A DNA stretch of 64,000 bases, from NCBI GenBank assembly GCA_015075645.1, contig JABTUF010000002.1, forward strand, positions 62,001-126,000, given 5' to 3'. The translations under genes and the position numbers were made by a program. Positions 30,813 through 39,898 of the stretch are shown piece by piece. Position 1 is the stretch's first letter. Each line of letters begins with the position of its first letter. The notes under the pieces were generated by a model, which was given only the letters and a program-made list of their open reading frames with translations, had not been told where the DNA came from and searched no databases. Origin of the DNA: Burkholderiales bacterium. Its GTDB lineage: Bacteria > Pseudomonadota > Gammaproteobacteria > Burkholderiales > Casimicrobiaceae.

Positions 30813-30981
30813 GCCATGAAGGGTCCCGAACCCAGGCGAATGGCCGCCGCCTGCCGCGTCGAGATGCCGGATCCCGATCGGACCGCGCGACCGCATGGTC
30901 GGCACGCCCGTCGGGCCGGAGCGACCGAGCCTCCCGATGCCCGCCATGGTCGTTTCCCGACGGCGGCCATGCTGTGATGCC

Positions 30982-31911
30982 ATGAGCCCTACCCACACGA
31001 GGCTCCTTCGAGGCACCGCGGTGGTGGGCATGCTCATCCTGCTCGCGGCGATCGGAGCATGGATGCTGCAGGCGTCGATCCCGCGCACGATCACGATCGC
31101 GACCGGTCCGGCGGGCAGCCAGTACTCGGCGTTCGCGGCGCGCTATCGTGCGACCCTCGCGCGCGACGGCGTGACGCTGGTCGAGCGCGGGTCCAAGGGT
31201 GTCGCCGAGAACGCGCGGCTCATCGCCGATCCCGGGTCGGGCGTGGACGTGGCGTTCATGCATGGCGGCGTGATGAGGAAACCGGACCGCGTCGTCATGC
31301 TCGCCGCGCTCTACTACGAGCCGCTCTGGGTGTTCACTCGCGGCCCCCGGACGCTCGACCGCCTGGACGAACTGCGTTACCGGAAGATCGCCATCGGCCA
31401 TCCTGAAGAGGGTGTGAAACCGTTCATCGAACCGCTCCTCGCGGCGAACAACCTGACCGGTTTCAACACCACGCTCGATCCGATCGGAGGCGTCGAGGCG
31501 CTGCGCGCCCTCCAGCAGGGGCGCGTCGACGCCGCGATGTTCGTGGGTGGCGTCCATGCGCCGGCGATCTTCCAGGCACTGCACGACCGGGACCTGAAGC
31601 TCATGAACTTCCGGCGCGCGGCGGCCTACCAGCGCAGGTTCGACCACATCACGAGGCTCGTGCTGCCGATGGGGGTCGTCGATTTCGGGCTCGACCTCCC
31701 TCCGGAGGACGTGACGCTCATCTCCACCGAGGCCATGCTCGTCGCGCGCGACGACCTGCCGCCTGCGCTCATCAACCTGCTGCTCGAGGCTGCCGCCGTG
31801 CGGATACGCGTGCCCGCGAGTCACGCCAGCGAGGCCTACACGCTGCGCGAGCACGTCGCGCTGGTGCGGCGGGCGATCGACGTCAGGCAACAGGTAACAG
31901 GTAACAGGTAA
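30982..31911 (+). CDS. TAXI-family (TRAP-type) solute-binding protein
   Basis: A 309-residue periplasmic or membrane-anchored binding protein. An N-terminal hydrophobic segment (residues 12-30) is followed by the TAXI start IATGPAGSQYSAFAARYR near residue 37, and later by IAIGHPEEGVKPFIEPLL near 135. It is shorter than many TAXI receptors. No TRAP permease gene is nearby, so its partner is unknown. The C-terminal residues QQVTGNR and the TAA stop are encoded inside a seven-base repeat array, so the natural end may have been replaced by the repeat. An upstream in-frame ATG at 30895 is possible but has no better ribosome site. Confidence 0.75.
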   Translation: MSPTHTRLLRGTAVVGMLILLAAIGAWMLQASIPRTITIATGPAGSQYSAFAARYRATLARDGVTLVERGSKGVAENARLIADPGSGVDVAFMHGGVMRKPDRVVMLAALYYEPLWVFTRGPRTLDRLDELRYRKIAIGHPEEGVKPFIEPLLAANNLTGFNTTLDPIGGVEALRALQQGRVDAAMFVGGVHAPAIFQALHDRDLKLMNFRRAAAYQRRFDHITRLVLPMGVVDFGLDLPPEDVTLISTEAMLVARDDLPPALINLLLEAAAVRIRVPASHASEAYTLREHVALVRRAIDVRQQVTGNR

Positions 31912-31918
31912 CAGGGAT
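31884..31918 (+). repeat. Heptad array, left arm (CAGGTAA type)
   Basis: Five seven-base units: CAGGCAA, three CAGGTAA, CAGGGAT, followed by a degenerate CAGAGGC. They run through the last codons and stop of the TAXI-type gene. They are the reverse complement of the TTACCTG and ATCCCTG units found before gltX and eno. Confidence 0.9.
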
Positions 31919-32003
31919 CAGAGGCCGCGGCTCGCGCAATGGGCGAGCGTGGGACAGGCACGTAAACTGTGCACATTCTGTGGCGATCCATTGTCGACCC
32001 CCG

Positions 32004-32136
32004 ATTCCTGTTCCCTGTTCCCTGTTCCCTGTTCCCTGTTCCCTGTTACCTGATACCTGTTACCTGATACCTGTTACCTGATACCTGATACCTGATACCT
32101 GATACCTGATACCTGATACCTGATACCTGATACCTG
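32004..32136 (+). repeat. Heptad tandem array directly before gltX
   Basis: One degenerate unit (ATTCCTG) and 18 exact-length units: five TTCCCTG, then TTACCTG alternating with ATACCTG (five units), then eight ATACCTG. The last unit ends at 32136 and the gltX ATG begins at 32137, in register with the repeat. No Shine-Dalgarno sequence is possible in this stretch. Confidence 0.95.
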
Positions 32137-33564
32137 ATGACTGACGTCCGCACCCGCTTCGCCCCCAGCCCCACCGGCTTCCTGCACCTCGGGGGCGCCC
32201 GCACGGCGCTCTTCTCGTGGGCCTACGCCCGCCGGCACGGCGGCGCCTTCGTCTTGCGTGTCGAGGACACCGACCTCGCACGTTCGACGCCGGAGGCGGT
32301 GCAGGCGATCCTCGACGCCATGGCCTGGCTCGGGCTCGACTACGACGAAGGCCCGTACTACCAGATGCAGCGGATGGATCGCTACCGTGCGGTCATCGAC
32401 GACATGCTCGCGCGCGGACTCGCCTACCGCTGCTACATGTCGACCGACGAACTCGATGCGCTGCGGGCGAGGCAGATGGCCGCGGGCGAGAAGCCGCGCT
32501 ACGACGGTCGCTGGCGCCCCGAGCATGCGGCGGCGAACGGGCTCGTGCCGCCGCCGGGCGTCGCGCCGGTCGTGCGCTTCCGCAATCCCGACGGCGGAGG
32601 TGTCGCGTGGGACGATCGGGTCAAGGGCCGCATCGAGTTCGCGAACGCGGAACTCGACGACCTCGTCATCGCGCGCGCCGACGGGACGCCGACCTACAAC
32701 TTCTGCGTGGTCGTCGATGACATCGACATGCGCATCACCCACGTGATCCGCGGCGACGACCACGTGAACAACACGCCGCGCCAGATCAACATCTTCCGGG
32801 CGCTGGGCCGCGAGTCGCCGGTGTTCGCGCACGTGCCCACGGTGCTGGGCGAGGACGGGCAGAAGCTCTCCAAGCGCCATGGCGCCGTGTCGGTGATGGA
32901 GTACGAGGCCGCGGGCTACCTGCCGGAGGCGATGGTGAACTTCCTCGCGCGCCTCGGATGGGCGCACGGCGACGACGAGGTCTTCTCGCCGGCGGAGTTC
33001 GTGTCGTGGTTCGACCTCGACGCGATCAATCCGGCGCCGTCGCGGTTCAACACCGACAAGCTCCACTGGGTCAACCAGGAGCACATGAAGCGGATGGACG
33101 CCGCCGAACTCGGCGCGCGACTACGACCGTACCTCGAGCGCGCCGGCCTCGACCCTGCGACAGGTCCCGATCCCGGCGCGGTCGCGGTGCTGCTCCGCGA
33201 TCGGGTCCGCACGCTCACTGAAATGGCCGACGCCGCGCACTACTTCTACGCGATGCCGCATCCGCCGCGCGACAAGGTCGCCGAACACCTGACCGAGCAG
33301 AACCGGCCTGCGGTTGCGGCGATTGCCGAAGCGTTCGAAGACCTGCCGTGGACGCGCGAGGCGATCGGCGAGCGCCTCAAGTCCGAAGCGAAGAAGCACG
33401 GACTCAAGCCGCCGCAGCTCTTCATGCCGCTGCGGATGCTGGTGGCGGGGACGACGCAGACTCCGTCGCTCGATGCCGTGCTCGAACTCGTCGGGCGCGA
33501 TGCGGTGCGCTCCCGGATTGCGGCGGGTCTCGCGCGTTGGTCGGAGGGTAAGGCGCCGGCTTGA
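32137..33564 (+). CDS. gltX: Glutamyl-tRNA synthetase
   Basis: Charges tRNA-Glu with glutamate; class I synthetase of 475 residues. The HIGH-type motif is HLGG at residues 17-20 within [16 protein letters not shown], and the KMSKS-type motif is KLSKRHG from Lys243. The anticodon-binding domain fills the C-terminal third. Start chosen at 32137 because [14 protein letters not shown] is the standard N-terminus and only repeat lies upstream. The stop codon lies in a degenerate copy of the palindromic repeat that fills the next gap. The gene is thus bounded by repeats on both sides. Confidence 0.96.
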
Positions 33565-33589
33565 AGGCCGATCTACGAAGATGTCGTGG

Positions 33590-33869
33590 GTCGGGCTTCA
33601 GCCCGACATCGCGAACCCGTGGGTCGGGCTTCAGCCCGACGCGATGCGGCGCGCTTCGGAACCCGTCGGCCTGAAGGCCGACCCACAACCGCTCCCGTGG
33701 GTCGGGCTTCAGCCCGACGCGATGCGGCGCGCTCGGAACCTGTCGGCCTGAAGGCCGACGCACAACCGCTCCCGTGGGTCGGGCTTCAGCCCGACGCGAT
33801 GCGGCGCGCTTCGGAACCTGTCGGCCTGAAGGCCGACCTACAGGGGCAGATGTCGGCCTGAAGGCCGAC
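33590..33869 (+). repeat. REP-like palindrome cluster between gltX and hutU
   Basis: Eight 18-base palindromes of two kinds. GTCGGGCTTCAGCCCGAC occurs at 33590, 33623, 33701 and 33778; GTCGGCCTGAAGGCCGAC occurs at 33665, 33742, 33820 and 33852. The middle part is a 77-78-base unit repeated three times (one palindrome of each kind plus spacer). A ninth, degenerate copy overlaps the gltX stop at 33555-33572. Lying between convergent genes, the cluster may end transcription from both sides. Confidence 0.93.
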
Positions 33870-33873
33870 CTGC

Positions 33874-37427: not shown

Positions 37428-37488
37428 TGCCGGGAAGGGAGAAGGGGACATGCCGGGAAGGGGGACGGGGGAAGAGGGAAGGGTGCGG
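37428..37488 (+). repeat. Purine-rich repeat tract after pyrG (left arm)
   Basis: G/A-rich tract containing TGCCGGGAAGGG twice, 23 bases apart (37428 and 37451), and units such as GGGGGAAG and AGGGAAGGG. It is largely complementary to the CCCTTCC heptads before kdsA, so it can form the left arm of a long hairpin enclosing about 75 bases. Confidence 0.75.
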
Positions 37489-37561: not shown

Positions 37562-37595
37562 CTCTTCCCCCTTCCCCCTTCCCCCTTCGCGCTTC
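37562..37595 (+). repeat. Heptad array directly before kdsA (CCCTTCC type)
   Basis: Seven-base register CTCTTCC, CCCTTCC, CCCTTCC, CCCTTCG, CGCTTC, ending one base before the kdsA ATG, whose A completes the fifth unit. There is no Shine-Dalgarno sequence. A complementary purine tract lies about 75 bases upstream. Confidence 0.85.

Positions 37596-38573: not shown

Positions 38574-39898
<1,325 letters not shown>

Follow-up and report, generated by a model that had tools for sequence, protein, structure and literature searches.

A heptad array abutting the gltX start codon is probably one arm of an IVS-type hairpin element

Results

The gltX gene in the 64,000-nt stretch of Burkholderiales DNA analysed here (the window) is preceded by an array of heptanucleotide repeats that runs into its start codon. 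Our overall reading, which we consider probable, is that this array is an arm of an IVS-type hairpin element from a likely mobile family. The array forms the downstream arm of an inverted heptad pair whose transcript is predicted to form a hairpin in the space between two genes, and this pair very probably belongs to a wider family of paired hairpin elements; its kinship with IVS elements is probable on the basis of the sequence comparisons given below. To judge from these, the array is likely part of a mobile element that is tolerated at the edges of genes, and not a stand-alone regulator acting through copy number. Against the kinship stand the lack of an IVP gene in the gltX copy, its position outside rRNA, and the existence of some unpaired arrays. 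The array itself is of a known kind; the tie to IVS and IVP elements is the part that our searches of open-licence papers did not find in print.

The gltX array and its inverted partner

The array occupies 133 nt of the forward strand (32004..32136) and contains 19 heptads, namely one ATTCCTG, five TTCCCTG, three TTACCTG and ten ATACCTG, arranged in homogeneous blocks of unit types that end with three TTACCTG/ATACCTG alternations and then seven further ATACCTG. The first-pass annotation of this DNA had described eighteen units in ordered blocks, as expected for growth by slippage, that end exactly at the ATG. Both the blocks and the end point agree with what we see, and eighteen is the correct number for the three unit types that it named; the first, variant unit (ATTCCTG) had gone uncounted. 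The array is not a chance product, since its lag-7 score is 117, as compared to scores of at most 19 when the window was resampled 100 times under a first-order Markov model, and TRF reports 19.4 copies with a score of 174.

The gltX gene (32137..33564, forward strand; TIGR00464, 536.7 bits against a cut-off of 289.95) is an essential gene. Its ATG at 32137 directly abuts the last heptad, and as the heptad period extends to 32144, the start codon itself lies in register inside a degenerate 20th unit, ATGACTG. No Shine-Dalgarno sequence was found before this ATG, in agreement with the earlier view that the array takes the place of a ribosome-binding site. A promoter and terminator scan recognised neither sigma-70-like sites nor terminators between 31800 and 32250, and an Rfam search over the window retrieved four tRNAs and nothing else.

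The array had been taken for a lone element peculiar to gltX, and its inverted partner had been missed. This 5' arm (31884..31921, forward strand; lag-7 score 25) reads CAGGCAA, three CAGGTAA, CAGGGAT and a final CAG, and is reverse-complementary to a stretch of the gltX array, with an ungapped inverted match to 32029-32066 that scores 28. It overlaps the end of the upstream gene (30982..31911, forward strand, with an alternative ATG at 30895), which encodes a TAXI-type TRAP solute-binding-like protein (TIGR02122, E 4.8e-15, 55.2 bits, below the cut-off of 84.35); the final codons of this gene and its TAA stop (31909-31911) lie inside the arm. Between the two arms is the loop of the predicted hairpin (31922..32003, forward strand), in which neither a sigma-70-like promoter nor an intrinsic terminator was recognised.

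Computed folds of the gltX transcript gave z scores of -4.4 (200 shuffles) and -4.9 (60 shuffles). In the minimum-energy fold, the 5' arm has 32 of its 38 bases paired with 32050-32087, and 63 of the 133 bases of the 3' arm are paired, with the last 47 nt before the ATG unpaired. The arms are unequal in length, with 19 units in the 3' arm against about five in the 5' arm. The inverted match and the computed folds provide gltX with the complementary ends and long stem that characterise an IVS, and the presence of an inverted partner sets it apart from a plain SSR, which would be a lone direct array.

Heptad arrays elsewhere in the genome

The layout seen at gltX recurs at other genes and in rRNA, and two further arrays in the window, before kdsA and eno, had been overlooked in the first pass. 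On the forward strand, the pyrG-kdsA element has a 5' arm of GGGAAGG-type heptads after the pyrG stop (37455..37481) and a 3' arm of CTTCCCC-type heptads (37564..37595) that abuts the kdsA ATG (37596), the inverted match of the 5' arm with 37564-37588 scoring 20. A CTGATCC-type array (38578..38608, forward strand) stops 3 nt short of the ATG of eno (38612). It is unpaired, the best score with any candidate partner being 6.5, and the kdsA-eno fold has a z score of -1.2.

We surveyed 864 kb, consisting of the window and 800 kb of the 4.39-Mb genome, in which gene names other than gltX were recognised from translations, and the IVP, RNase III and TRAP-like genes were searched for as families. At a threshold of 14 this sample contains 35 intergenic lag-7 arrays. 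The counts for the single lags 4-6 and 8-13 range from 0 to 4, and lag 14, which is twice the period, yields 20. With a looser threshold, and considering only borders with at least 60 free nt, an array was found at 11 of 344 starts (about 3%) and 16 of 292 stops, while any other tested lag reached at most 5 starts or stops. Arrays occupy 14 of 311 co-directional spacers, 3 of 65 convergent ones and 0 of 80 divergent ones, the depletion between divergent genes not being significant (Fisher p 0.08 against co-directional spacers). At seven genes (gltX, kdsA, eno, hisH, hisF, sspB and rapZ) the array lies 0-3 nt from the start codon. We rejected a general 7-nt period at all starts, where the mean autocorrelation is 0.306 at lag 7 and 0.290-0.312 at other lags; after stops the lag-7 value is slightly higher (0.338 as compared to 0.299-0.319).

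The combination of G-rich heptads at a stop with complementary C-rich heptads at the next start was found in at least three unit types. Partners scoring at least 14 within 900 nt were present for 27 of 42 intergenic arrays, as compared to 41 of 187 random pairings with other loci, a background that is raised because many loci have CAGTTG units in common. In a matrix of the arms of eight elements, the 5' and 3' arms of one element score 20-31 with each other and equally high with arms of the same type from other elements, while scores between types are mostly 3.5-9; the exceptions (11, 11, 12 and 15.5) all involve the long gltX array. We did not retain the polarity of the arrays with respect to transcription as evidence, because the sequence of an inverted pair is the same on either strand.

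Elements of the CAGTTG type lie at hisB-hisH, hisA-hisF, sspA-sspB, tolQ-tolR and other places, and they have inner sequence in common, for example GGAGTCTCCGGTGGCGGCGCATCGAGCGCC (among the matches listed). Ten regions were folded for z scores, and among them tolQ-tolR reached -12.4, hisA-hisF -11.4, hisB-hisH -9.7, sspA-sspB -8.9, pyrG-kdsA -5.7 and hprK-rapZ -5.5, with two contig 1 spacers at -4.7 and -2.4. The hprK-rapZ spacer contains a bare hairpin, and HprK of this genome ends in QQKLMDDQGSGVS, with its stop codon inside the element. The tail GSGVS followed by a stop also ends two unrelated genes whose stops lie inside arrays. From their sequences, these tails look as though an element had inserted at the end of each gene and provided the stop codon.

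These patterns bear on the simplest explanation of the array, that it is an ordinary slippage microsatellite, a long heptanucleotide SSR with neither partner nor function in a tolerant spacer. The ordered blocks of unit types in the gltX array would be expected of such a repeat, and heptanucleotides are said to be the commonest long SSRs in many bacteria, with Burkholderia named among them (Mrazek, via PMC4679880). A microsatellite, however, does not account for the partner array in inverted orientation or for the way in which arms match those of their own type, nor for the layout at stops and starts, the empty sites in relatives and the arms around IVP genes in another phylum (both described below), and we therefore regard it as very unlikely for gltX. 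A plain SSR is hard to hold for the paired elements; unpaired arrays such as that of eno could still be one.

Comparison with relatives

Several array positions are empty in related genomes. The pyrG-kdsA array was found in 0 of 22 relatives and the dnaK-dnaJ array (see below) in 0 of 20. At the end of HprK all six readable relatives differ from this genome, with no heptad array there by eye; a seventh (G001) was left out as its sequence ends 12 nt before rapZ. Element-free sites thus exist at several loci, and no target-site duplication could be read there because the ends of the elements are themselves CAG/CTG repeats.

At gltX, a lag-7 segment within 600 nt upstream was found in 7 of 110 loci, a count in which the window is included, one record appears twice and two of the segments are weak, A+T-rich and far from the start; the set of loci contains further duplicates. 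Among relatives with an array at the corresponding site the nearest is G019, whose GltX is 84% identical. Its ATG follows about 3.5 TTCCCTG units, and its 5' side shows a weak match alone (score 7.5); another relative (G004, GltX 88% identical) has no array there. The latter genome carries two gltX copies (C116:3834-5234, 88%, and C8:7767-9155, 84% identical to the query), which points to a mixed bin or a duplication. As the TRAP-like upstream gene adjoins gltX in this genome alone (1 of the 110 loci), the comparison could not establish that an element had inserted at gltX.

It was suggested earlier that gain and loss of heptads could tune gltX expression by copy number; phase variation by the same route is a related reading. 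The homogeneous ATACCTG block would fit this idea, as would the difference between 19 units here and about 3.5 in G019, a difference that also fits every rival explanation. Copies of the heptad in the Coxiella IVS likewise vary between strains, being 2 or 3 (PMC4990558). Against it, similar arrays precede unrelated housekeeping genes, gltX is essential, and phase variation was judged unlikely for the GGGNATC heptads of other bacteria by Rehm et al. (PMC4692102). We consider tuning of this sort quite unlikely, and return to the paired element as the preferred reading.

The eno array has a different distribution. An array ending at or within 3 nt of the eno start is present in 6 of 15 relatives of the same genus, with differing units; three more in the genus look degenerate by eye and fall below threshold, and none was found in the seven relatives outside it. 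This retention fits a translational role as well as it fits a selfish element, and it keeps such a role alive as an explanation: the pyrimidine-rich, unstructured heptads might be kept for Shine-Dalgarno-independent initiation or as the site of an RNA-binding protein. The seven genes with arrays 0-3 nt from their starts fit this too, and MacGregor proposed as much for the TAACTGA repeats (PMC4679880). On the other hand, an array is present at only about 3% of the starts surveyed, and initiation leaves the mirror arrays at stops and the copies in rRNA unexplained. We hold this explanation to be unlikely, though with less conviction than for copy-number tuning.

The hisB-hisH spacer was compared in five relatives (G001, G015, G004, G010 and G008). 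One of these (G001) has the same core with other heptads, a second (G015) has GGGCGAT-type heptads, G004 has a doubtful element, G010 has a 17-nt spacer without an element, and in G008 hisB does not adjoin hisH. The two arms of the element score 20, 30 and 20 with each other in this genome, G001 and G015, respectively, while arms compared across these three genomes score 6-8; in G004 the own-arm score of 10.0 is no better than the cross scores (up to 11.5). Both arms of the hisB-hisH element have therefore changed in concert, as expected if pairing is under selection or if one arm is re-templated from the other.

Such coordinated change at orthologous positions needs local re-matching, and together with the variation of unit types between loci it is a point in favour of arm pairs that formed where they now stand, through template switching or inverted duplication at the replication fork, instead of through mobile insertion. 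Homologous inner cores at dispersed loci speak against an in-place origin, as do IVP genes inside elements and the finding that three unrelated genes end in one and the same tail, with a stop codon provided by the element. An origin in place is in our judgement unlikely, and the mobile family remains the reading that we prefer.

Heptad arms in the rRNA operon and around IVP genes

The rRNA operon of this genome (L147:568-6706) consists of 16S, two tRNAs, 23S and 5S, with heptad arrays at all four of its junctions. Paired arrays also occur at two places inside the 23S rRNA gene. These two places are apparently the helix 25 and helix 45 regions. The junction arrays and the paired arrays inside the gene suggest that the 23S rRNA is probably fragmented in the ribosome.

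The genome has two IVP genes (PF05635), and both lie between heptad arms, one in the 23S rRNA gene and the other between dnaK and dnaJ, where the arms are of the GGGGAAG and CTTCCCC types. We searched 61 relatives and a further 150 genomes from the phylum and obtained 41 IVP loci. Three that fell below the family cut-off and four fragmentary ones were set aside, which gave a set of 34 from Pseudomonadota; these are not independent, as two come from this genome and several from the same genera. In this set a lag-7 segment lies within 180 nt of the IVP gene on at least one side in 30 of 34 loci and on both sides in 21, as compared to 0, 0, 2, 1, 0 and 0 loci on one side, and at most 1 on both, for lags 5, 6, 8, 9, 10 and 11. 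In the four loci that lack lag 7, the flanks nonetheless match each other in inverted orientation (scores 13 to 43). Control genes of relatives (gltX, kdsA and dnaJ) showed lag 7 on one side in 8 of 62 cases and on both sides in none. Beside one IVP gene (G131) there are arrays of 42 and 61 nt, with none elsewhere in 100 kb.

The association extends to plasmids. From 43 IVP-bearing plasmid records we examined 14, chosen for spread (13 cyanobacterial and one from Azospirillum), and found lag 7 on at least one side in 9 and on both sides in 7, with other lags at 0 to 5 on one side and at most 2 on both. Over all the IVP loci, inverted matches of at least 12 between the flanks of the same locus occur in 38 of 48 cases, as compared to 8 of 187 cross-locus draws. 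The arms of the two-sided loci are directed inward, with G exceeding C on the left and C exceeding G on the right, in 25 of 28. In three cyanobacterial plasmids (L303, L307 and L313) the IVP gene sits between cas genes (cas6/cas4 twice and cas10/cmr3-type once); the first of these has further heptad arrays on the far side of the adjoining cas genes, and no other IVP gene accompanies them. The Azospirillum lipoferum plasmid carries its IVP gene with heptad arms at L302:1201-1563, where PLSDB annotates no gene.

The IVP proteins fall in TIGR02436, and one of them shows a weak similarity to Avd that stays below the cut-off (28.6 bits). Structures have been solved for relatives of these proteins (2gsc and 2rld). 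Across genomes we saw no clear tie of heptad density to the presence of IVP: an array was found in about 100 kb of 4 of 12 IVP-bearing genomes and 0 of 4 without IVP, numbers that are too few and for which gene calls were lacking in two of the twelve (G123 and G126). Of the relatives with intergenic arrays, most (G001, G019, G021 and G017) yielded no IVP gene in their draft assemblies, which counts against the kinship with IVS elements.

Discussion

The gltX element shares with IVSs, which may be accompanied by an IVP/S23 four-helix-bundle protein (PF05635, TIGR02436), the complementary ends that form a long stem. Unlike an IVS, which lies inside an rRNA gene, it is placed between protein-coding genes and carries no IVP gene; such an ORF is optional in IVSs, and because of its place outside rRNA we class the gltX copy as IVS-like rather than as an IVS. 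In Coxiella burnetii, two to three heptamers in tandem precede the S23 ORF of the IVS, and RNase III cleaves this IVS in vitro (PMC4990558). These heptads are a partial printed precedent for the link between heptads and IVSs; a general tie of heptad arrays to IVP elements was not found in our searches of open-licence PubMed Central papers.

The first-pass annotation knew of no description of the element, yet heptads near starts and stops are already in print (PMC4692102; PMC4679880). Rehm et al. (2015) described GGGNATC heptads in Xanthomonas and Nostoc, mostly intergenic, for which G-quadruplexes were proposed; they lie within 50 bp of stops (sense) or starts (antisense strand), form inverted pairs, and are mostly found between aligned genes and seldom between divergent ones (PMC4692102). 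The authors saw no general association with mobile elements, and the words rRNA, intervening, four-helix and S23 do not occur in their text (PMC4692102). The gltX element has the same placement, with its 5' arm over a stop, its 3' arm at a start and an inverted pair.

This shared placement and pairing is what might recommend a G-quadruplex or i-motif for gltX as well (PMC4692102). However, the gltX units CAGGTAA/TTACCTG and CAGGTAT/ATACCTG have no GGG, and CAGGGAA/TTCCCTG, the only one of these three unit types that does, is not found in tandem in the 5' arm. The layout is kept in CAGGTAA, CAGGTAT and CAGTTGN units that have no run of three Gs, so that the four G-tracts of a quadruplex are unavailable. 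We accordingly rejected a quadruplex for the gltX array on unit sequence, and see very little chance that such structures explain these elements.

MacGregor (2015) described TAACTGA direct repeats in Beggiatoaceae, cyanobacteria and Bacteroidetes, which lie mostly just 5' of start codons, over the expected ribosome-binding site, at presumably essential genes too; one inverted set occurs in the genome described, and the repeats were read as a translational control site (PMC4679880). In the text searched, neither IVS nor IVP is mentioned (PMC4679880). As with these repeats, the gltX array lies upstream of a start and replaces the Shine-Dalgarno sequence, but the TAACTGA unit is fixed and the gltX units differ. 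Its reverse complement, TCAGTTA, resembles the CAGTTGN unit of our genome. A comparison made in the first pass, with the cyanobacterial STRRs, pointed to the right neighbourhood. STRRs are dispersed heptanucleotide arrays of Nostoc/Calothrix-type genomes. MITE and REP-type palindromic elements likewise have inverted ends and dispersed intergenic copies with a common core; they differ in that the ends of the heptad elements are heptad arrays that change coordinately.

To account for these observations we suggest that the elements insert or spread, and that they persist where a hairpin would be least harmful, namely between a stop and the next start or where rRNA is processed. The stem would hold the stop and the start close together, and might be cut by RNase III as in the 23S IVSs elsewhere; an RNase III gene is present in this genome, and by analogy with those IVSs we give processing of the hairpin an even chance. 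The arms would grow and shrink by 7-nt slippage and then be re-matched to each other. At gltX the 3' arm may have overgrown, with the approximately 47 unpaired nt before the ATG standing in for a Shine-Dalgarno sequence. A real effect of the element on the translation of gltX is conceivable, though we rather doubt it.

To our knowledge, IVSs and IVP proteins have been known for decades with both their origin and their function unsettled. Heptads at start codons have been reported repeatedly and explained as quadruplexes or as translation sites. We tentatively propose, as an idea that we do not yet favour, that the GGGNATC and TAACTGA repeats, and perhaps the STRRs, are arms of one cross-phylum class of IVS-type hairpins found between genes and in rRNA, whose arms would be recognised and moved or maintained by IVP/S23, a relative of the Avd of diversity-generating retroelements; gltX would then be a gene-less member with a runaway 3' arm as its leader. 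If heptad arms are indeed the common part, both puzzles become one question, that of the action of the IVP protein on a heptad hairpin, and it would be explained why essential genes may lack a Shine-Dalgarno sequence and have a repeat in its place.

Other repeats in the same spacers

Repeats of other kinds were seen in the spacers examined. After gltX, at 33616-33842, there are approximately three tandem 77-nt copies of a REP-like palindrome family (GTCGGCCTGAAGGCCGACCCAC and variants), and the spacer that contains them (33565-33873) matches at least 15 other intergenic regions of the genome sample. Palindromes similar to GTCGGCCTGAAGGCCGACCCAC are also nested in the loops of heptad elements. 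In one relative (G006; L370 and L345) a repeat, GGGTCCGACCC, and its mirror fill hprK-rapZ and dnaK-dnaJ, suggesting that several element families use these spacers. Finally, four units of about 180 nt, made of CAGGGAT heptads and REP-like palindromes, lie between convergent genes of our genome at L172:12373-13180 (G000:C3:232373-233180).
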